A program made the translations under genes and the position numbers. Positions 1 to 38,726 of a DNA stretch of 64,000 nt are shown here, piece by piece. Source of the DNA: Tricholomella constricta (Eukaryota; Basidiomycota; Agaricomycetes; Agaricales; Lyophyllaceae); contig JAACJP010000011.1 in the NCBI GenBank assembly GCA_013368375.1, forward strand, positions 1 through 64,000. Direction: 5' to 3'. How positions within the stretch are numbered: position 1 is the first letter of the stretch; each line of letters begins with the position of its first letter. Under the pieces are notes generated by a model that saw only the letters and a list, made by a program, of their open reading frames with translations, ran no database searches and was not told the DNA's origin.

Positions 1-1059
1 CGGTCACCCATCTGGAATGCCCCGGTCATTAGACGGCCGGGTAAAGCATTCGAATATCGGCATGACAAGCCGACACGAGGAGCTGGTCTCCCCCAACCCG
101 GCCCAGCTCATGCATTGGATGTCGAACATTGGTGTCGACATATGATTCACCATGGGCGTATTGGTTCTAAGAACCAATATGGAGGTATCGTAATGGACTA
201 CCGGTTCCGCGTTCATCGTCGCGGGACCTGGGGCTACTTACTGGCGAACGTATTGTCGCCAGTAACTCATAGTATGCGGGCATGGTTTATGCGAATTTTC
301 GCAACCATCACCGCACGGCCATACTTCTATGCAGAAGCGGTGGCGGCCCATAACGAGGCCAACCCTGATCGGCCGTTCACGCCGATTACCGGACCCGAGG
401 TTATTATCCCTCGGATCCAACCTACCGCTCCCGAAGGGCGGTTGACGGAACAAGGTGTCCTACAACACCTTATTAACAGTGGTATTCCAATTAGTTGGAT
501 AAACCACAGCTATACTTATGGTCTACACTATTTAGACCATAACTACTCTACTGCAGGTCCTCATAAGGACCTGTTCCACAATGTTGACGACGATCGCGTT
601 CGTCGACTCGATCAATTGGGCATGCCACCCGCCATTCCGGAATGGGACGGGTGGTACCATCCCACCACCGACGACATCACGCGCATTCAAACGTTAATGC
701 GCTTGGAGTTTCAGAACGAGGGGCTGGATTGTTTATCCAGCGTGGAATGGATGTTTGTGGGTGAAGACCCACATTTCCGAGAACTCCGTGTTCGGAGAGG
801 GGAGTTTCCCCCTCCGGACCTGCACACTCCCGCTCCATCGGGATCGACGTCTACCAACGTCGAAATGGCGGACCCGGCGGCACTCACACCTGCCCCCGCG
901 ACACCCTCCACAGTCGTGGCAGCTCCAATAGGAGCTACCGAAACCCAAGTGGACCCCGTGTCGGCCCTCACAGGGCCTCTATCACTGGCAGTGATTACCA
1001 CTAGCCAGGGTCCGGTGGAATCCAACCCCACCGACCCCGACACAGTGATGGAGTCATAG
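1..1059 (+). CDS. Third ORF of chromovirus A, C-terminal 352 codons (copy A1)
   Basis: The frame is open from the first base of the window to a TAG at 1057-1059. It is the C-terminal third of a protein encoded downstream of pol in this retroelement family; the same protein is seen nearly whole in copy A2 (45703-48675). Motifs shared with the diverged homologue in element B include YGLHYLD, NVDDDR and PPAIPxWDGW. The last 80 or so residues are Pro/Thr/Ser/Ala-rich and look disordered. I see no transmembrane segment or signal peptide in this part. Unlike A2, this copy has CGA rather than TGA at 289-291, so it remains open there. The function is not recognised. Its place after pol is where some retroelements carry env, but nothing here looks like an envelope protein. 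Confidence 0.85.
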   Translation, partial: RSPIWNAPVIRRPGKAFEYRHDKPTRGAGLPQPGPAHALDVEHWCRHMIHHGRIGSKNQYGGIVMDYRFRVHRRGTWGYLLANVLSPVTHSMRAWFMRIFATITARPYFYAEAVAAHNEANPDRPFTPITGPEVIIPRIQPTAPEGRLTEQGVLQHLINSGIPISWINHSYTYGLHYLDHNYSTAGPHKDLFHNVDDDRVRRLDQLGMPPAIPEWDGWYHPTTDDITRIQTLMRLEFQNEGLDCLSSVEWMFVGEDPHFRELRVRRGEFPPPDLHTPAPSGSTSTNVEMADPAALTPAPATPSTVVAAPIGATETQVDPVSALTGPLSLAVITTSQGPVESNPTDPDTVMES

Positions 1060-1434
1060 GTCGGGGAGACAACTTAATCCCCCCGTCAACGAACCGACCT
1101 CGACACGCAGGAGGTATCGTCGGGACGACCGCCATTGTCAGGTGTAGACCACCTTACTCCCGAGGAGCAAACCGCAGGTCGCGTACTCAAATATACGCAA
1201 CACCGGATGTCCTCAATCCCAGGCCACCTCGAGCGGCACTTGGAGGCCGTGTAGTGGAACTATTGTCTCCACTATGTATTCGGTTATGAATACGTACCAG
1301 TAATACGTATTTATGTGCAGGCGATATTGGGTGTAGGTCGCCGGGACCTACACCCTCCCTCTTGCCTTAATTTATTATTACTTATTGCATTACTCCCTGG
1401 TGAAGATCGCTACTAGCGATCTTAAAGGGGGGTA
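1060..1434 (+). other. 3' UTR of chromovirus A with polypurine tract
   Basis: This non-coding stretch lies between the third ORF and the 3' LTR. It ends in the polypurine tract AAAGGGGGG at 1424-1432, two bases before the LTR, where plus-strand DNA synthesis would be primed. Element B has the same tract in the same place (26958-26966, minus strand). Two strong perfect hairpins are present: an 11-bp stem around 1330-1355 and a 10-bp stem with a 1-nt loop at 1403-1423, abutting the polypurine tract. Confidence 0.8.
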
Positions 1435-1656
1435 TGTAAGGGCGCTTACTATCTTATCGACTAATCTGATCTAATCGTATCTTATCGACACGATTATGCT
1501 ATTGTTTGGCAACACCTTCCGGTGTTGCCTATTTAATCCTTTACATTACATAATTAAATAGTAGACCTTGTACACCTATACGTAGCAATCGACAGACTTG
1601 TCAAGCTTACGTCTAGCGTGCACAGCAAGGTCCCCAAATTCTGTAACCCCGTTACA
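1435..1656 (+). repeat. 3' LTR of chromovirus copy A1
   Basis: This 222-bp LTR begins TGTAAGGG and ends CGTTACA. It is nearly identical to the 5' LTR of A2 at 38398-38618; the few differences are mostly near the right end. It contains a perfect 9-bp hairpin, GGCAACACC/GGTGTTGCC, at 1508-1529. The preceding polypurine tract shows that it is a 3' LTR of a plus-strand element and not a terminus of element D. Confidence 0.93.
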
Positions 1657-2394
1657 GGAACAGCGACCTTGAACGATATATTTGAATCCGTTGGAGGCCG
1701 GTAGGTGCATGGTGTCGATATATATCTTCGCGAACAGTGGTGCGGGTGTTGCGACGGTCGGGGGAATAAGGACTTTGGTGGTCTGTTGAATCTGGCATAT
1801 GTGGCATGTTTGTACGAACCAAATGACGTCGGCTCGAACGTTGGGCCACCAGAAGCGCTCGAGGAGGGTCGCGCGGGTCGCGTAAAATCGCTTATGTCCG
1901 AGGTTGTCGTGGACCGATCGTAAGATCTCCAGTCGCGTCTCGGGTCGGGCGACTAGCTTGTGTGCGCCTTGTCTGTCCCGTCGCCATAGTCGCGTCCCAT
2001 CGATGAAGAAACCTGTGGCGTAACGGATGAAGGTTGCGTACTGTTCATCGGACATATTATCAGGTCGCCTGAGGTCAGTTAACCATTGCCTAACAACGTC
2101 GATGCGCCGATCCTGGGCTTTCGCCGCGTCGGTCCTAGGTATATCATCATATGACATGTCTGTCGGGTTCGTATTAGGGTCGCGTATGCCTGTATCGTCG
2201 TCGGTGCGGATTTTAGGCTGTCGCGGAAAGTTGGTTGCGAGTTCGTGAGCCGTTGGGTCTGGTGGCGTCGGGTCGGTGTCAGCTGCCACTATCTCCTCCT
2301 TACTTGAGATCTGAGCTAGGGCGAAGGTCTGGTAAATATGCAATGGCGACGGTGGCTGGGGCAGCGGTTGTATAATATGCATCAGGCTTTGCAT
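1657..2394 (-). pseudogene. Integrase N-terminal part of element D, truncated by A1
   Basis: The fragment contains the integrase HHCC zinc-binding module (HDNLGH, then CHICQ after a WWP motif) and the first part of the catalytic core, with the Asp in IDTMHLP. The frame then runs into the LTR of A1 a few residues later. It is in the same frame as the RNase H segment but separated from it by an in-frame TGA at 2395-2397. The second catalytic Asp and the Glu are absent. It cannot make an active integrase. The insertion is later than element D itself. Confidence 0.88.
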
Positions 2395-4504
2395 TCAGTC
2401 GACCCAGTCCTCAAAGTCGGCTTCGTCTTTGTCGTAAGTATCGGGTGGATCATTGGGCTGTCGGGGGCGACGCGACAATCCGTCGGGACCGTGGAAGGTG
2501 CCTTTAACGTGGACGAGTTCGAAGTGGAACATGAGGACAGAGACAATCCATCTATTGACAGAGGCGGATGGTTGGATATCGGGATTGGAAAGCATGCCTT
2601 TGATGTAGCGGGCGTCGACTTCGATGACCAAGTTTCGGACGCCTATGACGTAGAGCCGCAAGGCTCCGAGTGCGCAGAAGAGGCCATAAAATTCCAGCTT
2701 GGGTTGCGAAAAACACGATTCGCGGTCGTTCAGCGTAATGGAGCCGAAGCAGTTGTATCTGCGCCGCGTTCGGTTGATTGGGTCGGTCTGACAGAGGTAA
2801 AACCCGACTGCTATGTGTGAGGTATCGACGGCGAGTATAACCGGGTCGTTGGATGTATAGTCGATGGGGACAAGAGGCTTAGCTTCGGCGATTGCTTCGA
2901 CGATATCGCGTTGCGCTGCTATTTGGTCGGGCCCGAATTCGAAGACGGCATCTTTACGGGTTAGTTTTACGAGGTGGTGCGCGCGGTGAGCGAAGTTCTT
3001 GACAAATATTCTTAGTACTCCGACAGTTCCTAGGAAGGCGCGCAGTTCCGATAGTGTGGCGCAGGATGTCCATTTTCGCAATAACGTGAGGCGGTCCACA
3101 TCGGGGACACGACCCGCCGGTGTGCAAACGTGTCCCAGGACCTTGAATTGCGGCGCACATATGACTAGTTTCTTGCCTGAAAAGGTACCGCCGCAGTATT
3201 TCATACGTTGGAGAATTCGGTTGACGTTATTGAAGAACTCCCAGATCGCGAGGCGTACGTCGGAATTGTCAGGATGTGTTGTCGGTAGGCCTGTGTCGGG
3301 GTCGGGGTACCAAGTCGCGGGACCCTTGATAGGAGCATCATCGATATATGGCAGCGTGTGGTCGGGGATTTCGGGTTGCAGGATGTAAGTAACATTGTCA
3401 TGAAATATAGGGACGGAATTGGTCCAGCCCATGGGCAGGGTTACGAGGCGCAGTGCGCCAAAAGGTGTTTGAAAGGTAGTGAGGTCGCGCGACGATGGCG
3501 CGACAATCGCTCGTCGTAACCGACGAATAGGTCTAGCATGGCGCCACAAATGCGACCGGCAAACTGTTCGGCGATGTGGTCTGGAATCGGTGTTACTCCG
3601 GAGTGTCGTATGGTGACGCGGTTCAGGGGTTCGAGGCTATGGACGAGGGGAGTTTGCCGTTTTTCTTTAGGGTACAGAACCAGCGCGATCGGTAGCTGGA
3701 GTTGGATGGTTCGTAGACGCCGGCTGCGAGCTTGGTTTTAATAATGTCGCAAACTTCATCGTAGATGCCTGGGGGAATGGGGATGTTTCGTTTGATCCAT
3801 GGGGTGTGAGCGACAACTGGAATATCAATAGGTGGAAAGAAGTCCGATCGGAAGCGACCACGCTCCGAGTCGTCCCATGCGAACGCGAGGTTTTGTTTAC
3901 ACATGAGGTCGTGCATTATAGCGCGTTCGGTATTGGTAAGGAACCCCAGGTGTTCGCGGTCGAGGTCTTCTTTGCGTTCTATAGTGTAGCGTCCCGTGGG
4001 TCGGAATGGTGGTGGGTTGGGATGTAGTATCGGTATGTCGGCGAGGGGATCACCCAATATGTTTCTTTCTATCCTGAAGTGATCGGGGCAGCTAGCGACG
4101 ATGGATCGTACTTTCTGCGCGACGGGTTTATACTTCTTTTTGGTTTGTACACCTTTAATTTTAACGACGAATGTGTCGGTGTCAGTCAGAATTGGTAAAC
4201 CGGTGTTGCGATCGTAGTGCGGTAGTGAGTCGGCGGAGCTCGTTGGTGAGGTGAGGATAAAAGATTTGTTGATGGGCAAGGGAGGCGTTAGTCCTGGCGC
4301 TGTGATGTAGAGTGAAGCAAGCTGGGCATCGTGGGTAGCGTCGCTATTAGGTTCGGAAGGGAGTTCGCAAAAGGAAATAACAGTCGGGGTATAGCTCCGC
4401 GGGTCGTACTCGAGGAGGAGCGCGAGATCGCCGTGATCATGGCTTAATTCCTCGAGAGTATACGAAAATTTACGTCTTTCTTGGGGCGGCGACGCTGTCC
4501 GCAT
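2395..4504 (-). pseudogene. Reverse transcriptase and RNase H of element D, frameshifted
   Basis: The reverse transcriptase lies in two blocks: an N-terminal part (3623-4504) and the palm plus connection and RNase H (2395-3549). Between them (about 3500-3640) the homologous peptide (HSLEPLN, GVTPIPDHIAEQFAG) is readable only in a third frame, so at least two frameshifts are present. The catalytic motif is YIDD, within LPYIDDAPIKG. RNase H residues are visible around LAVDTSHIAVG, KLEFYGL and VEVDARY. The C-terminus keeps the LSRRP motif typical of the end of the Ty3 RNase H domain. It is non-functional as it stands. Confidence 0.87.
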
Positions 4505-5589
4505 GCGAAGTTCGGGATCGCGATGACTTCTTGAGTGTTTGGATCAGTGATAGTTATAATGGTGTCGTCGGCAGAGCGCGTTTTGACGTTGGAGCAGGTG
4601 AGCACGTCGAATGGTCGTCCGAGGAGTATGTCGTATGCGGGGTTACGAATGACGTGCATCTGGAGGTAGAGGGTGACTTCGCCTATGGTGCATGGTACAT
4701 TTCGTGCTAGTCCGAGCGATGGGTCAGTCGTACCGTTCGTGGACTGCATCTGAAGAACGATGGTTGGGTCGTATTTGACTCCCAATCCATGGCAGACCTC
4801 CTCCGACATTGCAATGATTTGACATCCGCTATCCACAATGCTTTCAATTTGTTCCCTTGCGTCGACCATCAGCATGATGGATCTAAGCGCGTGCGATTCC
4901 ATTGCGACGATCAGTCTGTCGGGGCATTCTCCCGGTAACAGATTTTGGTAGTACGTGTCGTAGACGTCGCCGGTGACTAACGCACCTGGTGGTGGCGTCG
5001 CGTTGTCGCTATTGCCTTCGCAGGGGAGTGCATCGAGTTCTTCTATGTAGGCGGACGTAGGGGCTTCATTGTATACCGTAATAAGGTTGCTGTTTATGAT
5101 CCTCTTGGGTGTGTTGGCGTCCCTGAATTTTCCGCGAATCTCTGGTGCGACTCCGCAAAGCTCTCTGACGGTTACCGACATTGTCGAGTCGAGCGCGCGT
5201 TCAAAGAGGTCGGCCGATTTAGTCGGGTCGGAAATGGGCGCTTGGGTTCGATATGCGCTATCGGCTTTCGCTTTTTCGGTGGCAGCTAAGTTCCGCGTGG
5301 TGGGAGGTACGTAGCGATTGTCAGGAATATTGGAGAACGGATGAATTGGCGCTTTGTCGCGCGTAGCGGTCACGGGGTCGGCTCTGGTGCTAGGGATCAG
5401 CGGTATGTTGGATGGTAGTGGGGGAGCTTTAGCGTCGCTTTTCTTCGGGTCCGGTGTAGTTCGCGGTGTGGGTGCTTCCTTGGTGGTCGGAGCGTCGGCG
5501 TCTTGAATGGTCTCGATAGTGACAGGTCGCTTCTGCGGCGTGCGACTAATGAGTTCTACTCCGTCAAAGACTTCTTTCCGTGCGCGCAA
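4444..5589 (-). pseudogene. Retropepsin-like protease region of element D
   Basis: This is a 381-codon open stretch. A Pro/Ala-rich N-terminal half is followed by an aspartic protease fold: the catalytic triplet DSG in VDSGCQIIAM, then a beta-rich segment and the flap-like ILLGRPF motif near the end. Retropepsins process Gag and Pol of LTR elements. Its end overlaps the reverse transcriptase block by about 60 bp in a different frame. That overlap could be programmed frameshifting or decay; given the other lesions I favour decay. Confidence 0.82.
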
Positions 5590-7242
5590 TGTGTTGAGTT
5601 ACGACCATTCGATCCTCGATTTTCAAGTCGTGGTTGGTGATATCGTTGAATTGTAGTATTTCTAGCATCATGCCTTCGGTCGGGTTCGCGTTAGCCGATA
5701 GTTGTCCTGTTGCTAATTGGTTGGGGTTACGTCTGTGCCACTCGTCGATTTTGTCTTTTATGTATCTGCCTGGTGTCCCAAGTGGTATGAGCGCGCCGCT
5801 CGGTAGTCCTATTTTGTTGTCTTCGGGTCGTCGGCGGCAGCGCCCTTCTGCCATGTATTGTTGACATATGGGGCAGTTGGGAATGTAATGTCCTTCGCCA
5901 CCACAAAAGTGACAGTTGTCGTGAGGTACCCGATTTGGCCGATTGCCGTCGCTTCCTGTAGTGTGTTCTAAGCGGTGGATGTGCTGTTCTAGAAGGTGAA
6001 TTTTCTCATAAAGCTCTTCCAATTTGAGGGGTTGGTTCGCGTTCGGTGACTTGGTCGCGTCCGATAAAGGTCCGCGTGGTGCGATCGCAATCTGTGGTGG
6101 TGCGTGCGCCGGCTCTTCCTGTCGTTGGACGGCGCTGGTTCCGTGGAGAATGTGTTCGGCCGCCGCGCGAATGTTTTCGGTGGAGTAGGGGTCGTCTGGG
6201 TGGTGGTTCGGATCTAAGATTTCGAGTCTGCGATGGATTTTTGACCATAAGTCGGACTGGAATGCGCGGCGAAATTGGCGGTCGCGTTCGTTTTTCGAGA
6301 GTCGGTCTTTGCTGACAAGGAATTGAGTGATTGGAAGGAACTGTCGGTAATACTCTCGAGGTCACTGTTGGATTGGATCCCTAGTCGGTGTCGTTCTCTG
6401 ATCAGGTGGTCGAGGTCGGCCATCGAGTACTTTCTTTCCTCGCTAGCTCCTGGGTAAAGTGCCATTATCGCTTTTCGCCAGTCGTCGTGTGCACCGTTCG
6501 CGAACTCCTCGAGTTGTTCCCATAGGTCGGCCGTATCGATATCGGTATATCGTGTGGCGTGCATTTTCTTTTCTCGTTCGTCTACCACGTTACATTCGGT
6601 GAAGAGGTGATCCAGGTCTGAGAAATACCGCCGTAGTTCGCGTGCGCGTTCGGGTGAGAACGTCGGTGCCGAACTTTGTCCGAGTGCGGGCATTGGTTTC
6701 ATAACGATCGGTGGTTGTGCCATGACAGATGGTGTTGGTCTCTGGAGAGGGGACGGAGAGGGGGAATATGACGGTGAGGAAGGATCTGAGGTTTCGGGTG
6801 TTGTAAGCAATAGGGGAGTGAGTCTAAATTCTACTCCTTGGTCGGTAGTAGGGCGTTCCGACGCAAAGGGGTTGGAGTCTGAGTTGGTTCGGGTGGTCGG
6901 TTCATGAGACGGGGTTCGGTCGGTCGAGATAGGCGATGGTAGGTCTGATAAAGGGCTATAGAACAGGGGACTGAGGTTGTTGTGGATCGCGCGATGTGGG
7001 GTTACTGAGTGAAAGAGCGGGGAGAGGGATTCTGAGTCGGTGTCGGCCTCTCCCAAGACAGCGAAGATTTCGGCACGAAGGGTTCGGGCTCTCGTTTCTT
7101 GTCGAGTCTCCGGCGGAATGGTCGCCGCATCGTAGGTTTTTACGAAAAAGTGTAAGAAGGTTGCGTGTTCGGCGGTGGTTTTTAAGACCCTCGCGGTGGG
7201 CTCCAGAATGATAGAGCTAGAATGCCTGTGGGTGCTGTACAC
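5564..7242 (-). pseudogene. Gag of element D, frameshifted
   Basis: The frame opens with ATG at 7242. After a Ser/Pro/Thr-rich leader it holds a Ty3-type Gag core (DLDHLF, YTDIDTADLW, LYPGASEERKYSMADLD). At about 6360 the homologous peptide moves to another frame, which stays open to 5564. That frame carries a coiled-coil-like ELYEKIHLLEQHI segment and one CCHC zinc knuckle, CHFCGGEGHYIPNC. Gag would form the particle and bind RNA. One indel near 6360 and another near 5575 (entry to protease) separate the parts. Confidence 0.82.
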
Positions 7243-9198: not shown

Positions 9199-12100
9199 TT
9201 ACGAGCGTACCTTGAGTGCTTTATTGAACACGGCTTGACAGTCTGTCGCAAGTTGTCTATACATGGCCGCCTGTCGGTCGCAGTACGCGGCTCGCCCGCC
9301 TTTCGTCGCCAAGCTCACCCCAGACGTCTGCCATCCTCGAAAACGATGCCACGCTGCGTCGAAACTCCTCTTGCAGAATCTCCTTCTCCTCTCGTGATCT
9401 GTCACGCGCTGCTCGATCGCGAAACCACTTGACCCGATCCACTGCCGTCCATTAGCATTGAGCCAGCCAGGTGAGCCATTCGAGAACGCTTACTTTCGAC
9501 ACTCCATTCCGACTCCTCTTCGAGGGTCATGCCAATACGCCGTCCAACGTGCCAGAACCACGGGTCCTGCTTCTTTGCATCACCCAGCTTGTGGCGTTCA
9601 GTCACGTTCTTCTGCCACAGCTGTTCTTTGAGCAGAGGTTGCAGTGCCTTGTCATCCGGGTCAAGGCCAAGCGCGAGGAGCTTTTTGTACACGCGTTGGT
9701 ACCGCTCCATTGCTGAGGTCTTTTCTAATTGGAGGGTGCGGAGATATTGCTGCGCGCGGGTGTGGGATCGTTGTCCGTGGACGTTAACTTGCTTAAACTG
9801 TAGGTTAGCGTTGACTGTCTTGATAGCCAGTCGAACCTCAGCGAGGGCATCGTGTGCTTGACCTTCGCGCAGTTGGTATTCGACCCGGGCCAAAGACTCG
9901 AGCCCTAGAGCGCTGCGTCGAGTGACGGTGAAGTCGGAGGGGAGCAGGAGAGGGATATCCTCGGTTGCGATAGCTTCTGTCGAATTCACTTCGCTTAGGA
10001 GAGCCGGGAAAATTGTCAGTTGTTCTTGACGCCAACTGGCAAGCTCTTGAGCAAGCCTGGCGCGTGGACTCGACGTCTGAGCATCAGTTTTGGACTTGGA
10101 GGATAGCTGGGCCCTGCGAAGTATGTGTTAGATGTGCAGTTGGGAGTAGAATAAGTGTATGCACTGTTTCTCCTCAAGCTGTAGCCCTGTGTTCAGAAAT
10201 GACGCGAGGCCTGCTCGATTATTGTCGCCACTAGAGGCAGCGAATTCAGCACTCGCTAAAGCTTGATACACCCGGTTCAACGATGGCGGCCCTTGGGAAC
10301 TGGTCAAGACGTTGAAGTCACTAATGGCCGTGTCGACTTACCTCCTTCCAGCTGTACTTCATATACACTCTGTACAACTCCTTTTGAGACGACCTTCGGC
10401 CTTGTATCCATGGTCTCCCACCGTGCGACTAGATCCGGTGCATGCATATTAGTCAATGCAGCAAAATCGTCCTCCCGCATTTGTAGAGTCTTGACGCACG
10501 CGATATACATACGATGAAGTGTTGCGGCTGTAGAACTAGATCAAATATAACCTTCAACAATGGATACAATGCTGACCAATCTGATGAACTTTCGTCCAGT
10601 TCCAATGACCAAAAAAATCGTCGAGGCTATCGTGGCGATGACCATCGTTCTGCTCCTTGGTGCTCCCTGCAGATTGGTTTTGTTCCGCCCATCCACCTTC
10701 GATGTTCTCGCCCCAAGTCTCGCCGGAATACTTCAAGTAGTTGAAGGCCCACAAAAGCATGCAAATCAGAACATGGTTCACGACGTGCATCTTGGGAATT
10801 GCGCCCCGAATCTTCCCGAGCAGAGGGACGACGTCTGGAAACCATTTCATAAAACATTTCTCGAGATTAATACAATATTGACACCTAAAGCTAATGAGTT
10901 TCAAGTGATTCTTCCCTAAGTAGGATAAACGAACCATATATCATAACTGATCATGATCCAGCGCAGGCGGCTGGCCTCGGCAATCGCGTGGGCCAACGCA
11001 TAGTCGGTGTTCGCGAACCTGCACAGCAGAATCAGTCAGTGTTCGAGTGTGAAAGACGAGCAGCTTACGCTTCGCCTTTAGTGAGGTCAACCGTTCCCTG
11101 TGGCATGTAACAGCCATGGCGGGCACACTGGAAGGCGACAACGCCGCTCACCACGGCATTCTTGAACTTCGCGATATTCTGCATCTTTCCTGCTTTGAGG
11201 TGTGGACAGGTCGGTTCCTGCAAAATACACGATGAGACGACGGCCACGATAGCTGGGAAGAAACGTACCTCTTCCGGATGAATGCCAACCCTTTTAAGAT
11301 AGCCTTTGAATGGCTCGGTCGGTACAAAATAGCTGTTGCCGTTGTTGAGAGCCGTGTCATCCGGATCATCATTCTTAAGCTTGCGTTGGAGTCGAAAGTT
11401 GCCATCGGTGGATAGAAAAAGGGTATACTTGTGGCTATATCTGGTCAGCAACGAGGAATGTGCGTGGCAAGAATCACTCACGTCTCATCGTCATGGGCAG
11501 CCCGGATCACAGCGTCGTCTACGTTGAAGCCGACCTCAGGGCAAGCTGGACATCGGACCGTGAGTGAGTTTGCGCGTCGGTGGGTAAGGATGTTGTCGAT
11601 GCTGTGGGCCTGGCCACTCCGTCTGACAATAGCGAGGTGGCTCCATACACGTGAGACCTGATTAAACTCGCGATACCGATCCTGTGCATTGTACAAGTCA
11701 GCCATTGTAGTACGATATAAATCAAAATACATACCCGGACGTCCTGGGGGAAAGCATTGTTTGTCAGGCTGCGAAGGGTTCCAAAATAGTCGTAGGCAGA
11801 TTTCTTCGACGTCAAGTTGCTGATGTGAAAGTGCTTGAGTACCGAGAACGTGAAGGCGGTTTCCGGTCGCTGGACAGTTGCGGGGAAGAATCGGGCGCGT
11901 ACCAGTTGCTCTGCGTCAGACAAAGCATCACAGTGGCAATATTTTATATGCATGCGATGAACACCATTGATATGGACGATGACTGTGGGGCGACCGATTG
12001 AGGTGGGAAGTGCGTTGGGGCACGGCTTGCCAAAGTGTCCTAACATGATGATGAAGCCCAATTCAGAAAGTGATACGCACTGGAAGAAACTGCCTGTCCA

Positions 12101-12500
12101 TCGCTGGAGGAAATGGAACGGTTGACTTTGATGTGCTACGATGATGCACTCCTGACATAGGAGATCGCACTGAGAGCATTCTGTGCATCGAAAAACACTA
12201 GCAGCCGCGCCGCAGGGACAGTCCTGTCCGATACGAGGATGGTACTCGGTCGATAAAATCGCGTCTTGTAAAATATCGAAGCTTTTCGAAAAAGTTTGCA
12301 TCATTACTGACGCGCCCTGCGTTCCATCAGCAAACCTTCTGCCCCAGTGATGAAGATACACGTACTTGTTTCCTGGTTGGCTTGACTTCGGGTTCGGCGG
12401 TGGGTAAAGTGGGGTTGTTGGACGGAGTAGGCTTGGAACATGTGGGAGGCGGTATTGATACACGTCGACGCTTTGACGTGGTTTCGTAGAATGTGCGCAT
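9199..12500 (-). CDS. KDZ-family transposase with CxC2-type cysteine cluster (F)
   Basis: A multi-exon transposase gene of the Kyakuja-Dileera-Zisupton group, which moves DNA transposons in Agaricomycetes. In order from the N-terminus: a basic leader from ATG 12500; a cysteine cluster (CPCG, CTECSQCDLLCQEC) at about 12100-12240; a domain with HINGVHRMHIKYCHC; a core segment with NSLTVRCPACPEVGFN and FQCARHGCYMPQGTVDLTKGE; the family signature GWAEQNQSAGSTKEQNDGHR at about 10650; and a helical tail rich in charged residues. Several 45-70 nt introns are needed, for example GTAAGC...CAG near 9430-9495. At about 9290 the tail motif GRAAYCDRQAAMYRQL is in a different frame from the preceding helix, so one indel is likely near the C-terminus. 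The stop is at 9199. TIRs were not located. Confidence 0.85.
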
Positions 12501-13074
12501 TGTCGTGCTCCCGGCTGCTGAGACTGCCCTGTTCAATTCAATGTTATCCTCCTGATCGGACTCGCTGTCGTAACGGCCAAGGACTCCTCAACGCTTGTGG
12601 GTGCGGGACATTGAACAGGAGGGAGCTAGCTACAGAACGAAGTGGTGCGTGCTCGTTAGTATGAGGAATAAGGATATTTCAGAACAATAATGGTGGCAGC
12701 ATTGTACGGCAATGACTCCTCGACATCGATCGGGGAGAAAATACAATAACACAAGGGACGTTTCTGGCCACAACGAGAACAAGGGACCTCACGATCGCTG
12801 CCAGAGCAAATCGTGTGGGCGATCGAAGATCTGACCCCAACTCATCGACGAGAACAATAGTCTACGGGACCTCACGATCGCTGCCAGAGCAGATCGTGTG
12901 GGCGATCGAAGATCTGACCCGAACTTATGAAGGCAACTGTGCGAGGGAGAAAAATATACGATTCGTTATTTTAGCTAGGTGAGATAACAAAGTTGATAGT
13001 GTCAAAAATTCAAAAATATATGTGTGCTTTGATGGTAATAATTGTGCGCTTGGATAGTGAAGAGTCTGAATGTT
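12501..13074. repeat. Intergenic spacer with a 57-bp direct repeat
   Basis: The repeat GGGACCTCACGATCGCTGCC... occurs at 12783-12840 and again at 12866-12922 with two or three mismatches. Each copy is internally palindromic: CGATCGC near its start pairs with GCGATCG about 20 bases later. No gene is seen in this stretch. It separates the KDZ gene from the next minus-strand gene, and both are transcribed leftward. Confidence 0.75.
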
Positions 13075-21619: not shown

Positions 21620-23040
21620 CTGCACCAGTGACGACCACCACCACCACCACCCACCACCACCACCATCACCACGCCACGACAACGGCGACGACAATGACGA
21701 CAACAACGACAACAACGACAACGATAGCGATAACGACGACAACGACAGTGGTAGGAGAGGGCCGGAAAAGGGCAGACCCCAGCTGGGGGAGAGCCCCCAG
21801 GTGCGTCGACTGCGCCCACTGCCACGAGCACTGACTACCACCTGCACCAGCTTCCACACCACCAGGTCCATGAGACCACTGGATGACGACCACAATGGAT
21901 GACGGCATGACGACGACGACAACAGCACGACGACGACGACGGCACCACCACCACACCACCACCACCACCCACGACAACGGCACGACGACGAACGACGACG
22001 GCGACGGCCACGACGATGACGACAACCCCACCCGCGTTCACCACCACGATGGCCACAACGACGACGACCTCACCACTACCACCATGAAGACGACAACGAC
22101 CCCGCCACCTCACCACCACCACCACCACCACCACGATGGCCACACTACCACAACAATACCACGATGACGGCAACGGCGACCACACCACCACGCCATCACC
22201 ACACCACCATCACCACAACACCACGACGACGGCCCCACGACGACGACACGACGACGAACGGCCACGACGACGGCGATGGCACCACCACACACCTGCATCC
22301 CACCACCACCAGCACGACGGCCACCACACCACCACCCCAACAACGGCACGGCGACGGCGACGGCACCACCCCCACGACGGCGACGACCTCACTACCACCA
22401 CAACACCACCCCACAACACCACCACGACGGCCACCACACCACCACCCCAACAACGGCACGGCGACGGCGACGGCACCACCCCCACGACGGCGACGACCTC
22501 ACTACCACCACAACACCACCACCACGGCCACAACACCACCACCCCAACAACGGCACGGCGACGGCGACGGCACCACCACCACCACGACGGCGATGGCACA
22601 CCACAACCACCACGACAACCACCACGAGGACGACGACGACAACGGCGATGACGAGGACGACGACAACGACGACAACGACGAGAACTCGACGATGACAACC
22701 GCCAGCAACCCTACGGCCACGGGAACGACGACCCGCTGTGCACGATGGGAAGGATAAGCGGTAGGAGAGGGCCGCAACGAGGGCAGACCCCAGCTGGGGG
22801 AGAGCCGCCAGGTGCGTCGACTGTGCCCACCGCCACGTATCACGCTGACTACTATCTGACCATGACCACGATCACCACCACGACAGCTACCAGCGCCATC
22901 GTCACATCAACAGCTGCCGGAGCACGACGACCGCCAGCAGCCCGACGACCACCACCAGACATCGACTCCATACGACAACGACAACGGCCACACCTGTGGC
23001 CCCCGCTCCACTCGTCGTCACCCCGCTCCCGGACGCGGTC
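21620..23040. repeat. ACC/ACG/ACA triplet-rich low-complexity block
   Basis: On the plus strand the sequence is built almost wholly of CAC, ACC, ACG, ACA and GGC words, with very few T residues. This gives long but meaningless open frames on both strands. Embedded is a 100-bp direct repeat at 21751-21850 and 22761-22865 (GTAGGAGAGGGCC... to GTGCGTCGACTG...), and nearer repeats of a ~120-bp segment at about 22320-22430 and 22440-22550. No gene is supported. Confidence 0.85.
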
Positions 23041-26228: not shown

Positions 26229-26721
26229 TGTCAGGGGAACTCTCGTTCACGCTCTCCGACGCTCACAGATCGTTCCCCGACTCACGTATTCGCCCCCGAC
26301 CGACCGATCGCGATCCTGACCCGACGCTCCGACCCAAGCGTCGGTGTACATACTTACTCACTTCCTGTCGCTTCCCCTCACTCCCCGCGCGCGCCCGACG
26401 CCGATCCCGACCGCCCGACATCCCGACGTCGGCTGCCCCGCCTCGTGCCCGTACCCTGGGCCACGAGGATCGGACAGTGTCGGGAACGTGTCCATACACG
26501 CGCCGCACACCATTCGTTATTATTACATGTACAGTACACTCTGGAGGACCGGCCCTCACGTCCTACACTCGTATATAGTCGGCCCCCTGGCATTTGGGAA
26601 TCCTTTACACTATTCTCTTCGGATTCCCCCTTGCCAGGTAAGCCTTACTTACCTTCGTTACTGTACATCAGTATAACTTCGGATTCCCCCTTGCCAGTGT
26701 GATAGCGCTCCACTGTAAGGG
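26229..26721 (+). repeat. 5' LTR of element C, main part
   Basis: It begins TGTCAGGGG, and its last bases lie on the far side of element B at 37253-37263 (TTGCCCTAACA). TGTCAGGG and CCCTAACA form the usual short inverted termini. A 25-bp direct repeat (CTTCGGATTCCCCCTTGCCAG) occurs twice, at about 26617 and 26678. Together the two parts give an LTR of about 504 bp. It disrupts the gene at 24522. The 3' LTR is not in the window. Confidence 0.72.
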
Positions 26722-26955
26722 TGTAACGGTTGTACGGGGTTGGGGGATCCTTGCGAGACACCAGACACGTTAAGCTAGACCAATCTGTGGGATTCTGCTA
26801 AGTACGTGTACAGGGTGAAGGTGCAAAGGATTATCTAAGCATAAACTGTACAGGACATTTATATACGCATAACAAAGATGGTCGTGCATTACCAGAAGGT
26901 AATGCCAAACAGGTTGCGTCTCAATATAGACGTATTGTAACGCGCCGTCGTTACA
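26722..26955 (-). repeat. 3' LTR of chromovirus B
   Basis: On the plus strand it runs from TGTAACGG to CGTTACA. Internal hairpins include GCATTACC/GGTAATGC (8 bp) and TGTAACG/CGTTACA (7 bp). On the minus strand TATATAAATG is a plausible TATA box. It is flanked on the right by the polypurine tract, as a 3' LTR of a minus-strand element should be. Confidence 0.94.
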
Positions 26956-27109
26956 CACCCCCCTTTGAGATCAATGTATGATCTCAGCAGATGGATGTGC
27001 ATGGTTATTATTATAAATACAAAGCGTGAGTATACAACTCCCACTTAATTAGGGATCGTGTATGTATTTCGACGACTACCATGACTGTGGCGTACACTCG
27101 ACATTGTCG

Positions 27110-29758
27110 TTAAGCCTTGTCTACGACATCCATCGCATGGTCGTCAGAAGCGTTAGCCTCTGGTAGAAGGACCAGTGGTGCAGATAAATTAGGTGGAGCA
27201 GAGGGCGCTGGCGATGTAGTGGACTCGATAGTTGGAGGCGGCGGACCTTCCAATGTGGGCGGTGGCGCAGATGGGTCAGTGGTATCGTTAAACACCAGAT
27301 CGCCATCGTAGAGTACAGTAGCTTCGCGGTCACATCCAGTGATGAACTTCATCGACGTGATGTCGTATCCTACGGGGTGTAGGCCGCGAGCATGCGCAGT
27401 GTCCAGTCCTCGCTCTTTCTCGCAGTCGAGTAGTACGTGGAGTCTAGCGATATCATCGCGGGTCGGCTGTCGCCACCCATCCCATTGAGGAATGGCCGGG
27501 GGTATCCCGTAACGACATAGCCGAACAAGTCGGTCGTCGTCCACATTGTCGTATAGTGTACGATCAATTGTGGTTCCCGTATAATGCGCATCCAAGTAGT
27601 GGAGGCCGTAGGGATAGGCGTGATCAATCCAAGCGACGGGTAGTCGATTGGCAAGAAGAGTACGGATTACGTCCGTTTCGGTTAAGTTGGCGGCATGCTC
27701 CTCAGGAAGAGCTAAGCGACCAAGGCTTGCCGTAGAAGGTAAGTGGTCGGGGATGCGATCCAATGGGTGAATGGCATTCCACGAGTCCACCGCTTCTCGA
27801 TAGAGGTTCGGTCGAGCAATGATCATGGCGTATAGGCGCATGAACGCGACTCGAGATGCGGCTCGGGTAGGGCTCATGGCACGACCAAGGGTGTACCCGA
27901 CCACAGTGCGGAAGTGGATCGAGAAATTGTAGTCGATCACTAGACCGCTGTATACGTTGTCTAGGCCTGGCCTTCCGTGGTGTACAATATATTGTCCCCA
28001 CACGTTGAAGTCCAGGGCTTGCGATACCGATGGTATGGGTAAACCCGCACCTCGGGTTCGAGGGTTGCGCGCTGAAGTGGACAATACTCCAGCAGGCGGT
28101 GGTAACACAGGTCGTGTCCACGCAGCGTCATCGCGTATCGATGGTTTGTGAGCCGGATCGAAGTATTCTCGTTGAAGGATAAACTTCATAGTCCGGTCTC
28201 TGTGGGGTTCGGCGTATCGTGAAGCGATACGATAGAAGTCCCAGAGTAGGTAGTGGGCTTCCACACGGTCGGTATCCATGTTGAAGTTATCGTCACGGAA
28301 CTGAACCAGATTGCGGATGTCTCGAGGGGACATAGGGAACCCGCGAGGTGCACACTTGTACAAAGGTGAACCTGTCGCATTGAATGCGGTTTTGTGTTCA
28401 TGTTCGTATTCTAGAGCGCGACTAGCGCTCTGAGAGGCAAACACCGTATTACTGTACGGTGACCAGTACAGGCGTCGGTGAAGTAGTCCACCAAACGCGT
28501 TGTGGCGTTCGGGAGTACCATTGATGTGTAGTACGCCAATAGTATCTGGAATGTGTCCGACGAATGTCTCGAAGTTATACTTCAAGCGTTCGTTGGCTTC
28601 TCGGTCTGCAGCAAGGCGGTCGCGGCGGACTGAGGTGTTGTGCTTCATTCGTAAGCTACGCTCGTCGGCGGTTTCGCTTGCTGGTTCCTCCTTCAGCGTA
28701 CCGATGGTAGAGGGCTCTACAGTCTCTTGCATCGGTTCATCGGCAGGCGAGCTAGCGTCGACCAATCGTACATCGTCGACGGGCATCTGCTCAGGCACCG
28801 CAAAGGCCTGACGTATCGTAAGCACAATACGTCCAGCATCAATGTGCGGAGGTACGCCAAGAGGAAAGGGTACCTCGATAGTGGGGATCACTAGAGGTAC
28901 TTTGGCGGCGCTTGTGGGCGCAGATCCTATTTCTTGCGCTGGCGCCGTGGACTGCACCGATGTGGGTGCGGTCTGAGGACCCTGCGTCCGACTACGCTTG
29001 TCGGTATAAGGCATCGCGTTCGGCGATGCAGGGCGCTTATGTAGCGCGCGTTGCAGCTCCTCGGTGATGTGGCATTTAGCCATAGTTTGCTGGTCAACTT
29101 CTCGTTGAAGGCGGTCAATGGTGTCGAGTAGTTGTCCTATCACGACCCTTGCCATTCCATCATGGATAAAGTCGACTACAAAGTCGGGTGCTACTCCGAC
29201 GGTCTCGAGGCGGTTGAATATACTGTCTGGGTTCGTTCCCATATTAGCATGTGGTGCGTTGCGTGGCGCAGCATGCGTACCTCGAGTATTTCCGTGAGAG
29301 TTCGAGGGATTTCCTTCCTTCTCTTCGACGGCTCGTTCACCCCCCTTTGGGCGGTGTGGTTTGTTACCACCACGCTGTTGTGAGGGGCGTCCCATCTCGA
29401 CGCTTCTGTTCTTAGCATCAGGCAGCTGTCCAGGCTCGAGTTGCCCTGCTCCATGTCCATCGACATCCATTGGAGCGTGCAGGCGCTCAACGGCGGGTCC
29501 AGGAGCAGGCGTCTCGCCTGTGGTGGAAGGATTCTGTCCTTCGAATGGCTGATAGCTCGGTACCATTGTTGGCTGGTATGCTATCGATCCAAACAACAGT
29601 GGAGACTGTGCTTGGTTTTGCGGTTGCGTAGTTTGTTGCGCATGTTGTACGCGAGGTGAATTACTCGTAGCGCTGCGGTTATTGCGACCGCAGCGTCCAC
29701 GCGTTCCTCCCCCTCTTGAGTTTCCTCGAAAACTCAGTGATTCTTGTCCAGACGACAT
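27110..29758 (-). CDS. Third ORF of chromovirus B, 882 residues, function unknown
   Basis: An intact ORF from ATG 29758 to a stop at 27110, 142 bp downstream of the pol stop. The N-terminal 170 residues are Gln/Gly/Pro-rich. A helical block (FNRLETVGVAPDF, DFIHDGMARVVIGQLLD) is followed by a variable linker and a conserved globular half with IGVLHINGTPERHNAF, CAPRGFPMSPRD, YGLHYLD, NVDDDR and PPAIPQWDGW. The tail is Pro/Ser/Thr-rich. The order and motifs match the third ORF of element A although the sequences are widely diverged, so the protein has been kept under selection in both lineages. There is no signal peptide, membrane segment or zinc knuckle. It is not an envelope protein by any sign I can see. 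A second capsid-like, RNA-binding or host-interaction protein are all possible. Confidence 0.85.
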   Translation of the reverse strand: MSSGQESLSFRGNSRGGGTRGRCGRNNRSATSNSPRVQHAQQTTQPQNQAQSPLLFGSIAYQPTMVPSYQPFEGQNPSTTGETPAPGPAVERLHAPMDVDGHGAGQLEPGQLPDAKNRSVEMGRPSQQRGGNKPHRPKGGERAVEEKEGNPSNSHGNTRGTHAAPRNAPHANMGTNPDSIFNRLETVGVAPDFVVDFIHDGMARVVIGQLLDTIDRLQREVDQQTMAKCHITEELQRALHKRPASPNAMPYTDKRSRTQGPQTAPTSVQSTAPAQEIGSAPTSAAKVPLVIPTIEVPFPLGVPPHIDAGRIVLTIRQAFAVPEQMPVDDVRLVDASSPADEPMQETVEPSTIGTLKEEPASETADERSLRMKHNTSVRRDRLAADREANERLKYNFETFVGHIPDTIGVLHINGTPERHNAFGGLLHRRLYWSPYSNTVFASQSASRALEYEHEHKTAFNATGSPLYKCAPRGFPMSPRDIRNLVQFRDDNFNMDTDRVEAHYLLWDFYRIASRYAEPHRDRTMKFILQREYFDPAHKPSIRDDAAWTRPVLPPPAGVLSTSARNPRTRGAGLPIPSVSQALDFNVWGQYIVHHGRPGLDNVYSGLVIDYNFSIHFRTVVGYTLGRAMSPTRAASRVAFMRLYAMIIARPNLYREAVDSWNAIHPLDRIPDHLPSTASLGRLALPEEHAANLTETDVIRTLLANRLPVAWIDHAYPYGLHYLDAHYTGTTIDRTLYDNVDDDRLVRLCRYGIPPAIPQWDGWRQPTRDDIARLHVLLDCEKERGLDTAHARGLHPVGYDITSMKFITGCDREATVLYDGDLVFNDTTDPSAPPPTLEGPPPPTIESTTSPAPSAPPNLSAPLVLLPEANASDDHAMDVVDKA

Positions 29759-29899
29759 TAGGTGCGATTTCTAGTGATAGTGGTAGTGCACAAGGGGGCA
29801 GAGAGAAAATTTTTCGCTCCCCCGATCGGAGCTCCACTCGATCGAAGTGATCGAGTCCAGCCACGCTGTGGCTGTGTGGTGCACATTGCATGCCACACC

Positions 29900-32800
29900 T
29901 CAGCGCAGCTTTGCGAGCTGCGATATACGCTTCACCCCCTGGAGCTCGAGGTATCTATCGAGAGCTGCCAGGGATTCGCAGTGCTCACGCGGCTCCCACA
30001 TAGTGTCCCCCAGGGACCATCGAACTTGAAATTCAATGGCGCCCTCGGACCACCTATGTCCTAGAACCTCCTCGACGAACCACTCGTGGTCGTCTGGTGC
30101 ACCAAAGTCGTAAGGCTCTGGGTGCGCTCGATTCGGGAACAGTGCGTCCTCCGTAGCGTAATACGGTCTCAGCACGGACACATGAAACTTCGCGTGTAAG
30201 CGGCGCTGCTGAAGCGCGGAAGGCAGTTCCAACGTATAATTTGACGTTTCTGGCTCTGCCTTCAAGACACGATAAGGCCCCACGAACTTGGGACACAACT
30301 TGCGTGCTCTACCCTTTGGAAGATTCAAATTCTTCGTAGATAGGTAAACTAAATCACCAGTGCTAATCTTAGGATCATCACTCCGGCGTTTATTCGCATT
30401 CAGCGCTTGGAATACGCGGGCCTCGATAATAGCATCGTGGGCTTCCGCGAGATTCGAAAGGGCTTGTTCTGCGAACTGGCGAATACCCCGAGGAATCACA
30501 TTATCACTGCGAATTTCCTTGATCATAGAGGGCATATATCCGCTGTTGAGTTCGAATGGCGCGTATTTGGTTGTCTCCGATATACTCGCATTCAGTGCAA
30601 ACTCGGTCATATCTACGCGATCGACCCAATCTTTCTGGTTGTGGCGCACCACAGTACGGAATATTTGTCCGATACTGCGGTTTGCACGCTCAGTCTGGCC
30701 ATCCGTTTGAGGATGAAACGATGTGGACATGAGCAGTTTCGATCCAAGGATCTTGTGAAGTTCTCGCCACCATTTGGAGGTGAACTTCGAGTCCCTATCG
30801 CTCACGATGGAACTAGGAAGACCATGCAGACGAACAATCTCGCGCATGTATATCCAGGACAATTCCGACGCGGTCATGCGCGTATGTACTGGAATTAAAT
30901 GCACCATGCTCGTCATGCGGCACATAATAACCCACAGGTAATTATAGCCTTTTGATTCAGGGAACGGGCCTATAAAGTCCGTTCCAATGGAGTCCCATGG
31001 TTTAATGGGCACTGGTAGCGAATGTATTTTGCCAGCAGGTTTTTGATTCAAACCCTTGGCTCGCTGACATGACTCACAAGTTTGACAGAACTTGCGAACT
31101 TCTGCGGTAATGGTGGGCCACCAGTACCAGCGTCGGAGGTATTCCGTGGTACGCTGGGCTCCAAAGTGTCCAACGGACGTATGTGCTTGTTCTATGAGTT
31201 GAGTGATCAATTTACGATCACGAGGAACACATAGAACTTCTACGCCGGCTGGATTCGTTGTCCAAATTAACGCATCTCGGTGTGTAAAATGCGTGAATTC
31301 ACCGGGTTTGTCCATTATTACCGTGAACAATTTATCGGTTTTGTAACCTTTCCGTACTACTTCCAGGAATGAAGCATCGCCATTCCGTGGGTGTGGGTCT
31401 GGACGCAGCGCAGGTGCGGGCTGTTGAAACAATGCCTCGCCCAACGTTTGTTCGCGTTCTGAAGGAGCCCCATCCGGTTGTTGACCGGTCGAGGATTCAG
31501 ACTGTACGGTAGGTTGCTGAAACTCTTCCAGTATGGCGGCTTCGATTTCTCGATCCTCACGCCGTTCCTGGAGGCGGCGACTACGCCTCACTTCCACGTC
31601 CTGCATGGCTCGAATTTCAATAACTCGTTCAGCCACTTCTTGCAGTCGTGAAGGTGGGAGATCCTCTCCGTCTGGATCTATTCGCGCGTCAGCGCGTACA
31701 TAGTCGTTGACGCTCTGCACCTCATTAGGTGCATCTCCTTCAAAGTAGCGGGATAAGCAATCAGCTACTTTGTTCAGTTCTCCTTTTACATATGTAATGT
31801 CAAAGGTGAACCGAGACATATAATCGTTCCAGCGTCGTTGACGCGGTGACAGATTTACTTGAGTTTTGAAGAACTCTAGCGCTTTATGGTCTGTGATTAC
31901 ATGGATATTGTAACCAACCAATTTATCTTCCCATTTTAATAGGGCTTCTAGAATCGCAAGAGTTTCGAGCTCGTGTACAGCATAATTTTGCTGAGCGCTC
32001 GTGAACTTCTTCGACATGAACCCAGCGGGCCGACATGTCTGCCAAGTGGGTCCTTGGCCGTACATGGCTCCGACGCCGGTCTTCGAGGCATCGCATATAA
32101 GCCATATAGGGTCTTTATTCTTAACGTCTATAGGCTGTATGACTGGTGTCCTACAACATATTTGTTTTATCATTTGAAAACACCGATCATGGATCGGTCT
32201 CCAATGAAACGGCAACCCGTTTTGCGTCATGGACATGAGGGGTCCCGTATACGCAGTAATATCAGGTAGGAAGTTACCCAAGTAATTTACTAGTCCGACG
32301 AACCGCTGAATATCATTATATGATTGCGGTGTTCGCCATTCGCGTATGCGGCTTAGTTTATCGACATCAGGGTGTATACCGCGATCATCGATAATGTGTC
32401 CAAGGCAATCAACGCGTTCAGCGTATAATTCGCATTTCTTCCATTTCAGATACAAAGAAGCAGCTCTGAGTCTCTCGAATACTATTCGTAGGTGTTTCTC
32501 ATGCTCTTCTATCGATTCCGAAAAGATAAAGATATCATCCAGGTAGACATGCATGAATCTACCAATCAAGTCTCGAAAGGTTGACGTCATGAGTCTCTGG
32601 AATGTGGCAGGTGCGTTGCAGTCACCTATCTGCATTATATTGCTGACATAGGTGCCGGCGATAGTCGCAAAGGCTGTTTTATGTACATCCTCTGGTCGTA
32701 TACGCACTTGCTCATAGGCGTCGGTTAGATCAATTTTTGATCTAATCTTCGCCCGCGCCACATCTTCCCGAATAATTTCTTGATTGGGTAGTGGCGTCAC

Positions 32801-33755
32801 GTCTTTCACGGTGTTATCGTTACGTTGACGTGCATCTAGTGCAGTTCGTAGCGAACCATCTTTCTTGTAGTGGGGCTGCTTGGCTGACGGTCCGTGGCTC
32901 CCACCACTTAGCATCCACATAGCGGTTTATCTTCGCGTGGAATTCTTCTCTCAGCGAATTTGGGCACTGCGGTAAGTGATAGTGATACCGTGCATTCTCA
33001 TCGATTAAATGAATCTCATGGTTAACTTCCCTCCATGGTGGTAACGTGTTAGGAGTTCCATTCACCATATCTTGAAACTCATCATGCCATTGCTGACGTA
33101 GGCGGGGATAATCTTCAGTAGTGAGTTTACTTTTGATTTTTGTATTACCATCCTTTCGTCGCTTCCCTTCCGTGGTTGGTTTCTCATACCTATCGCGGAG
33201 GGCTTGTATCCGTTCTTCCGTCTCATCTGGTACTTCCAGTCGTACTTGCCGTGACTGCGGCGTACTTCCTGTAGTACTACCAGCTATTGTCCCGACGTAT
33301 ACTGACGGTTCGGATATCTCGTCTGGGCGCGCATCGCGATATATCTCGCCTGGAGGCGCTTGGACTCGCGTATATGCACGCATGGACGCAATTACCTCGT
33401 TCCATTCAAATGGCATTCGAGGATCGTACGCCCAATCGACGTGCGGATGTGGTACAGGTCGATCCCAAAATGTTCGCTTGGGTTTCTCCTGCGCCACTTG
33501 TGGCGACACTTGTGGTTCCGGTAATTTTACCTTCTCCTCAGTGCTATCCAAATTATCGATTTGCGAAGATTTGGGTTCTTTGTGCTGCATTTTGTGCATT
33601 TTGTCTTTCTTTTCATACTCGGTTGACCCTTTCTCCCCCTGAAGAGTATCTATATACTCTTCCTCGCTCATCAGTAGACATGGCACGTCCGACGGAAGAC
33701 TATGCATTTTGTGCACCTCTTCCTCCGGAACGTCTTCTACTGTGACTCGTGGGAG
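29900..33755 (-). pseudogene. Pol of chromovirus B (RT, RNase H, integrase, chromodomain), one frameshift
   Basis: The frame follows the Gag-protease TGA without a shift (33755 down to 32820) and continues in another frame from 32920 to 29900. The switch is explained by loss of 11 bp at 32866/32867 compared with A, just before the KKDGSLR motif of the reverse transcriptase. Domains: reverse transcriptase with the YLDD active site at about 32540; RNase H (ICDASKTGVGAMYG, HELETLAILEAL, ITDHKALEFF); integrase with an HHCC module, D (GTDFIGPF), D (IVSDRDSKF) and E (HPQTDGQTERAN); a GPY-like KFVGPYRVLK; and a C-terminal chromodomain (EWFVEEVLGHRW...FQVRWSLGDTMWEP). The chromodomain places it among chromoviruses, whose integration can be guided by histone marks. 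Confidence 0.9.
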
Positions 33756-38618: not shown

Positions 38619-38726
38619 TTTTTTTAAGCTACCTTGCTTTCTATTGCTGCGTACCCACGACATTACGCAGAACCACATTCCATTTAGAACACCCATCATC
38701 AAAAGAACCCACGAGACCCAGACCCG

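Follow-up and report, generated by a model that had tools for sequence, protein, structure and literature searches.

Dense short hairpins throughout a clade of Ty3-type retrotransposons in Tricholomella constricta: a probable case of genome-scale ordered RNA structure kept by selection on the transcript

Why is the end of a fungal retrotransposon studded with short, perfect stem-loops? The question is raised by the first 1,656 nucleotides (nt) of the window, the 64,000-nt stretch analyzed here, which spans positions 1-64000 of contig 11 of the T. constricta genome (44.1 Mb in 118 contigs). These nucleotides, which we call copy A1, belong to element A, a Ty3-type long terminal repeat (LTR) retrotransposon, and form its 3' end. 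An initial annotation had listed 11 perfect stem-loops in A1, and all 11 are present in the sequence. Two entries need slight correction: the stem at 159-179 has 10 bp and a loop of 1 nt (not 9 bp), and the 11-bp stem lies at 1329-1355. We found additional stems at 119-141, 723-741, 756-773, 844-863, 1252-1274, 1289-1311 (8 bp), 1472-1496 (loop of 11 nt), and 1641-1657, the last of which extends one base past the end of the A1 LTR. The parts of A1 and its main stems are listed below, with the stems given without strand and with reference to A', a sister subfamily of A.

1-1059, plus strand: 3' part of A1 ORF3, the end of the third open reading frame (ORF) of element A
1060-1434, plus strand: untranslated 3' stretch of A1, with stems at 1252-1274, 1289-1311, 1329-1355, and 1403-1423
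1435-1656, plus strand: 3' LTR of A1, 222 bp, TGTAAG...GTTACA, with stems at 1472-1496, 1508-1529, and 1641-1657
159-179: perfect stem of 10 bp, loop of 1 nt
238-265: perfect stem of 10 bp, loop of 8 nt; in A', two pairs are exchanged on both sides and two are broken
516-542: perfect stem of 10 bp, loop of 7 nt
723-741: stem of 7 bp, loop of 5 nt; A' has a hairpin at 721-739 (9 bp, loop of 1 nt) with largely different letters and register
1329-1355: perfect stem of 11 bp, loop of 5 nt; in A', one pair is exchanged from G-C to C-G
1403-1423: perfect stem of 10 bp, loop of 1 nt
1508-1529: perfect stem of 9 bp, loop of 4 nt, inside the LTR

We quantified the excess by counting stems with loops of at most 10 nt and comparing the counts with 200 dinucleotide shuffles. 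Positions 1-1656 hold 17 stems of at least 7 bp (shuffle mean 1.06, maximum 5), 8 of at least 8 bp (mean 0.23, maximum 3), 6 of at least 9 bp (mean 0.07, maximum 1), and 5 of at least 10 bp (mean 0.0, maximum 0). The rate of one stem of at least 8 bp per 6 kb that had been put forward as the chance expectation is near the shuffle value (0.23 in 1.66 kb). We also used 200 codon-preserving shuffles, which keep both the protein and its codon usage. The ORF3 tail at 1-1059 has 12 stems of at least 7 bp compared to 0.96 in these shuffles; the excess survives them, bearing out the suggestion that the protein does not demand the stems.

The hairpin excess reaches far beyond positions 1-1656. The window contains a second, longer copy of the element, A2, and a related element, D, on the opposite strand.

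38398-38618, plus strand: 5' LTR of A2, 221 bp, 97.7% identical to the A1 LTR
38688-41813, plus strand: A2 gag ORF, 1041 amino acids (aa), with a zinc knuckle; 18 stems of at least 8 bp compared to 0.88 in codon shuffles
42335-45577, plus strand: A2 pol ORF, 1080 aa, with reverse transcriptase (RT), RNase H, integrase, and SH3; 16 stems of at least 7 bp compared to 1.8
45640-48675, plus strand: third ORF (ORF3) of A2, with no Pfam match; 23 stems of at least 7 bp compared to 2.0 in 45640-47910
26721-37247, minus strand: element D (family F3), with the gag-pol-ORF3 order of A and few long stems

For stems of at least 8 bp, the counts in A2 were 18 in gag, 5 in pol, and 13 in ORF3, compared to codon-shuffle values of 0.88, 0.41, and 0.55. 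Under a stricter shuffle, in which codon-junction letters were preserved as well, the three ORFs together had 36 compared to 1.8. Neither direct repeats (23 compared to 20.6 ± 3.3) nor mirror repeats (10 compared to 7.1 ± 2.2) are in excess in A. Stems in coding sequence favor the register in which third codon positions face second positions (40:22:23 in A, 23:13:11 in F4, a further family), as expected if synonymous freedom is used. No perfect stem in the ORFs of A and A' exceeds 11 bp (loops of at most 12 nt), and the longest in the F4 region is a single stem of 12 bp. Hairpins of at least 5 bp occur in A at one non-overlapping hairpin per 42 to 57 nt and cover 0.35 to 0.46 of the sequence, compared to 0.13 to 0.14.

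As controls, we used 12 other RT-bearing Ty3 ORFs from the same genome (loci L032 to L043), chosen from 150 listed matches for their differing ORF lengths; families may repeat among them. Their stems of 5 to 7 bp are at chance (×0.98 to 1.12), and their stems of at least 8 bp stand at ×2.9. The nearest further relative among the matches listed, L048, which serves as an outgroup, has ×0.50 to 1.38 for 5 to 7 bp and ×4.0 for at least 8 bp, the latter on two stems. Other ORFs of at least 250 aa in the window are at or near chance. Overall, the excess is real, strong, and clade-wide among the elements sampled, and protein sequence and codon use do not explain it.

We compared four related groups: A, A', F3 (which includes D), and F4, for which the stem lists come from one copy each of A and A' and one copy each of F3 and F4 was read. 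A 133-residue probe from A ORF3 gave 142 listed matches in the genome, fragments counted in. Among these, family A occupies at least 31 places at 95 to 100% identity over nearly the whole probe, A' matches at approximately 79 to 82%, and a further group that includes D matches at approximately 44 to 53%. D and the F3 copy are 97% alike in pol and ORF3. F4 is approximately 72% identical to A over a 100-residue stretch of RT, and the copy read has 192-bp LTRs that are identical to each other. Its stems of at least 7 bp number 13 in gag, 18 in pol, and 10 in the third ORF, compared to 2.0, 1.95, and 2.35 in codon shuffles.

Each family has its own hairpin geometry. Stems in A are 6 to 11 bp long with loops mostly of 6 to 8 nt; F4 combines stems of at least 7 bp and loops of 3 to 5 nt with additional stems of 4 to 5 bp; F3 and D have 5-bp stems with loops of 3 to 6 nt. 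The distribution of loops between the classes 3-5 and 6-8 nt differs between A and F4 (Fisher P = 2.8e-5). Element D had been proposed as a comparison for A. It has no clear excess of stems of at least 8 bp, long stems being scarce in both D and F3 (three each with loops of 3 to 10 nt, compared to 1.0 and 1.2); however, stems of exactly 5 bp with loops of 3 to 6 nt are in excess (61 compared to 25.9 in D, 58 compared to 24.1 in F3), as is folding energy. For this reason, D was rejected as a structure-free control. Within our sample of Ty3 elements from this genome, the trait is confined to one clade comprising A, A', F3/D, and F4.

Individual stems are rarely shared between these families. Stem centers common to the pol ORFs of A and F4 number 3 compared to 1.27 expected, and those common to A' and F4 number 5 compared to 1.64. 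Paired positions from A and A' stems are preserved in F3, D, or F4 at fractions within 0.06 of those of null pairs. One comparison, F4 stem pairs kept in F3 ORF3 (0.40 compared to a null of 0.28, at 0.39 nucleotide identity), was not used. The hairpin property persists while individual stems turn over between families.

We next consider folding energy, expressed as the minimum folding energy difference (MFED) over 300-nt windows with 16 codon shuffles. On the sense strand, MFED was 22.5% for gag, 17.9% for pol, and 25.5% for ORF3 of A; 23.1% for pol and 32.1% for ORF3 of A'; 19.3% for pol and 13.1% for ORF3 of F3; 14.9% for gag of D (12.2% on nine windows), the only ORF of D that was folded; and 19.5, 20.3, and 22.1% for the three ORFs of F4. 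All 11 clade ORFs folded thus fall between 13 and 32%, compared to -3.5 to 8.8% for the 12 control Ty3 ORFs, 3.2% for L048, and -8.9, -7.8, and 4.7% for three other ORFs of the window. Two of these last, 2398-3636 and 11522-12532 (both minus strand), fold worse than their own codon shuffles (-8.9 and -7.8%), the reverse of A. Sense MFED exceeds antisense MFED in 10 of the 11 clade ORFs, and the per-window excess energy, sense minus antisense, is negative in all 11. The difference exceeds two standard errors only in F3/D (-4.0 ± 1.9, -2.6 ± 1.1, and -6.8 ± 2.4 kcal per window), with sense and antisense MFED of 19.3 and 13.1%, 13.1 and 8.4%, and 14.9 and 6.7%.

Comparison of A with A' bears on whether the stems are kept by selection or produced by mutation. 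As a null, we let ancestral stems decay neutrally in 60 simulations. Stem centers common to A and A' number 29 of 32 in gag-pol (simulated 13.9, maximum 21), 19 of 33 in ORF3 (simulated 4.3, maximum 9), and 6 of 7 in non-coding sequence (simulated 1.2, maximum 3). In gag-pol, the ratio of divergence in stems to divergence outside them is 0.35 compared to 0.66 simulated, and none of the 60 simulations gave a ratio under 0.41. For loops, the rate of change relative to that outside is 0.84 in gag-pol, 1.23 in ORF3, and 1.45 in non-coding sequence, all within the simulated range. Taking stems from A and A' in turn, we found that 4-fold degenerate sites differ at 10 of 200 positions in stems and 201 of 1106 outside in gag-pol, and at 26 of 196 and 185 of 641 in ORF3. 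Non-coding differences, with both directions summed, amount to 15 of 262 in stems and 155 of 794 in the surroundings.

Polymorphism among A copies (10 to 15 rows per piece) indicates that stem sites still receive mutations. Singletons are about equally frequent in stems (42 of 1106, 0.038 per site) and elsewhere (291 of 6874, 0.042 per site); therefore, the stems are not mutation-poor, and changes in them are removed between lineages. The corresponding values for A' (0.046 in stems, 0.088 outside) were not used, since one pol piece held a very divergent row, most likely D, and since pol mosaics between A and A' inflate the values as well. Compensated pairs in that piece come from the divergent row and likewise were not used as evidence from within A'.

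Taken together, these data lead us to consider it probable, although far from certain, that this is a retrotransposon clade with genome-scale ordered RNA structure kept by selection on the transcript. Of the two causes offered in the initial annotation, selection for a folded RNA is better supported than template-switch repair, because A and A' share more stems than neutral decay would leave, stem sites mutate normally within A and yet diverge less between lineages, the geometry is family-specific, and the sense strand folds better (clearly so in F3/D). Under such selection, the whole Ty3-type transcript, coding and non-coding, would be subject to weak, pervasive pressure for a dense row of short local hairpins. 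The folded molecule would be the sense RNA, with a clear strand bias only in F3/D, and the benefit may be that the element's RNA is protected against RNA-directed silencing or nucleases, or is compacted for packaging into particles.

Several results weigh against selection on a folded transcript. The strand difference lies within approximately 1.3 standard errors for every ORF of A and F4 and reaches 1.9 in A' ORF3, and in a smaller run (at most eight windows) no more than 7 of 10 ORFs had the higher value on the sense strand. In predicted folds, 10 of 11 clade ORFs have a smaller share of G.U pairs on the sense strand than on the antisense strand. The stem-to-outside divergence ratio of ORF3 (0.60) is inside the neutral-decay range (0.68 ± 0.10), and that of non-coding sequence (0.29 compared to 0.62 simulated) is not below all simulations. 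Compensatory double changes between A and A' are not above the null fraction. Finally, A and A' together have 123 perfect stems compared to 8.8 expected (×14) and 47 one-mismatch stems compared to 15.4 (×3); this dominance of perfect stems is what a copy-correction process would give.

A special case of selection on the RNA is that the hairpins are dispersed binding sites, recognized by shape, for Gag or the ORF3 product, which would package or condense the RNA. That stem and loop size are peculiar to each family, that a third ORF is found in the clade copies read, and that ORF3 has diverged between A' and D all fit such sites. Two observations count against them: inspection by eye of the A loops listed showed no shared motif beyond a richness in adenine, and the third ORF of F4 is not clearly similar to the ORF3 of either A' or D. 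We regard dispersed sites of this kind as doubtful. In a broader form, the clade may carry a family-specific hairpin code over its entire genome, each family having its own stem and loop size with no fixed positions or letters. We put this forward tentatively, jointly with the equally tentative proposal that the code is read through RNA shape, either by an RNA-binding protein that the family encodes or by a silencing enzyme of the host.

Mutation could also account for the stems: a strand being extended in reverse transcription or replication would fold back, copy the opposite arm, and thereby perfect imperfect palindromes and erase mismatches. The preponderance of perfect over one-mismatch stems in A and A' is the strongest point for such copying, and a similar pattern is described for coding palindromes in nematomorph mitochondria (PMC6649704). 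In the RNA phages MS2 and Qbeta, by comparison, perfect stems stand at ×3.9 and one-mismatch stems at approximately ×4.9, and F4 is between (7-fold and 4-fold). A few stems found only in A' also carry, relative to A, two changes on the same arm, as copying would produce (e.g., at 562 and 843 of A pol). Overall, however, the changes that separate A from A' within stems do not cluster on a single arm. The summed left-right differences in ORF3 were 5 for A' stems (random 14.0 ± 3.1) and 9 for A stems (11.8 ± 2.4), and in pol they were 6 and 12 (random 4.8 ± 1.2 and 11.0 ± 1.8). Single changes outnumber paired Watson-Crick double changes by 46 to 7 in A stems and 60 to 6 in A' stems, and only one changed loop looks closer to an inversion, a weak case. 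The same arm test against F3 (15 compared to 28.5 ± 5.4) and other distant pairs was dropped because its binomial null ignores saturation at 40 to 67% identity. Moreover, neutral conversion does not predict the lower divergence of non-coding stems compared to the sequence around them, and the geometry of A and F3 is strongly different although a 100-residue stretch of RT is approximately 91% identical. We leave a minor but appreciable share of the weight on a copying process, acting alone or together with selection; as the explanation it is rather unlikely.

Selection could instead act on DNA, through hairpins in single-stranded complementary DNA or cruciforms in the integrated copy. Consistent with this, both strands of A and F4 fold nearly equally well, and the stems are near-perfect Watson-Crick stems with few G.U pairs on the sense strand. 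The G.U share is below that of shuffles in all 11 clade ORFs; in the phages, the sense strand has the larger share in four of four ORFs. The sense strand of F3/D is clearly better folded, which argues against DNA as the target. A sense excess of MFED is present in MS2 and absent in Qbeta. Because the G.U shares weigh against the RNA, we slightly lowered our confidence in selection on the transcript and slightly raised that in selection on DNA, which we still judge improbable. Two possible markers did not help. The asymmetry between G.T and A.C mismatches was first read as a sign of DNA in the element, but was dropped in both directions as lacking power here: one MS2/Qbeta control gave more G.T than A.C mismatches (11 and 5 compared to 1.2 and 0.9), and at other thresholds the two were about equal in the same phages (×6.28 and ×5.68). 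Loops are richer in the letter A in A, A', F3, and F4, which is not decisive as a strand marker.

Chance or genome base composition, for which one could cite the ×2.9 of the control ORFs for stems of at least 8 bp and their MFED of up to 8.8%, is practically negligible given the codon and dinucleotide shuffles, the chance-level 5- to 7-bp stems of the same controls, and the other window ORFs of at least 250 aa at or near chance.

The coding capacity of the clade is that of a Ty3 element with an additional ORF. In A2 pol, Pfam matches give the order RT, RNase H, integrase, which is the Ty3 order, and Pfam Chromo scores 20.2 bits in pol, under its cutoff of 25.1. ORF3 has no Pfam match in A, A', or D; it is 997 aa long in the A' copy L010 and 886 aa in D (27113-29770, minus strand), and the two are 35% identical over 466 aa. 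F4 has a third ORF of approximately 770 aa at the equivalent place, whose best matches to the ORF3 of A' and of D are not clear ones (E values 0.35 and 0.006). The LTRs of D were taken, by assumption, to be the repeats at 26721-26955 and 37013-37247. In A2, the ORF3 frame is interrupted by a TGA at 47908 that A1 does not have, and the copy breaks off at 48781. Positions 41851-42336 of A2 do not align to other A copies at the expected place, and the A2 pol frame is 1080 aa compared to 1299 aa in many A copies. No Rfam family matches at gathering scores within 38300-48900. In two other copies, L015 and L016, the second half of pol is 91.5 to 92.4% identical to A2 and the other matched pieces 97.8 to 100%, which suggests that their pol is an A/A' mosaic that arose by recombination between the subfamilies.

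Both copies lie among other elements. The end of the A1 LTR (1657) adjoins another Ty3-like element, which lies on the minus strand with ORFs at 1576-7242. The 5' LTR of A2 (38398) cuts into a gag-like ORF at 37273-38427. Both are cases of nested insertion. Short in-register repeats at 22052-22615, 60050-60700, and 61403-62022, with spacings of 110 nt, 160 nt, and approximately 19 nt, are unrelated to the hairpins.

The purpose of genome-wide RNA folding in persistent RNA viruses is still open. This clade offers a natural comparison, as its related elements share the same cell and host defenses and have different hairpin geometry, and what folding serves (escape from RNA silencing, packaging, or stability) becomes directly testable. 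The results suggest that the RNA of these elements would have to fold as well as encode proteins, and the synonymous sites of such elements are unusable as neutral clocks. If there is a hairpin code, then silencing pressure or packaging would shape codon usage across an entire lineage of mobile elements.

Among known systems, the clade resembles Ty3 chromoviruses in its gag zinc knuckle, its RT-RNase H-integrase, its SH3, and, on a match under the cutoff, a possible chromodomain; it differs in its extra third ORF of approximately 770 to 1010 aa without a Pfam match (A, A', and D tested) and in its hairpin-dense sequence. In the titles and abstract openings of open-licence PMC literature, we found no report of genome-wide folding in a retrotransposon. 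Perfect inverted repeats in coding sequence are also described for nematomorph mitochondria in PMC6649704, where they are gained and lost between species, imperfect ones are not in excess, and perfection is used as an argument for conversion; those palindromes reach 284 bp, whereas the stems here are mostly 5 to 11 bp, nuclear, and part of a mobile element. Template switching is described in PMC8794818 as making and maintaining RNA hairpins. The ORFs of MS2 and Qbeta (Leviviricetes) have MFED of 22.5 to 32.7%, comparable to the clade, and, like F4, an excess of stems of at least 8 bp with 3- to 4-nt loops (6 compared to 0.1; 14 compared to 0.7 in F4). Unlike these phages, A and A' have perfect stems of at least 7 bp at 14-fold rather than 3.9-fold, and fewer imperfect stems relative to perfect ones. 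The closest likeness is to genome-scale ordered RNA structure (GORS) as presented in PMC7642675, in which MFED averages 1.1% in unstructured viruses, 7.5 to 10.7% in hepatitis C virus, and approximately 15% in SARS-like coronaviruses, values obtained with 350-nt dinucleotide shuffles and thus not strictly comparable with ours. There, pairings are non-homologous between relatives and paired sites vary less. Both GORS and the clade combine raised folding energy along the coding length with many consecutive local stem-loops, a capped duplex length (approximately 14 bp in the published case), less variable paired sites, and rarely homologous pairings. The stems of A are unusually perfect by comparison with GORS, and stem and loop size are specific to the family. 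GORS belongs to positive-strand RNA viruses and the present case to a clade of LTR retrotransposons in a fungal genome, which works like GORS without being a GORS virus.

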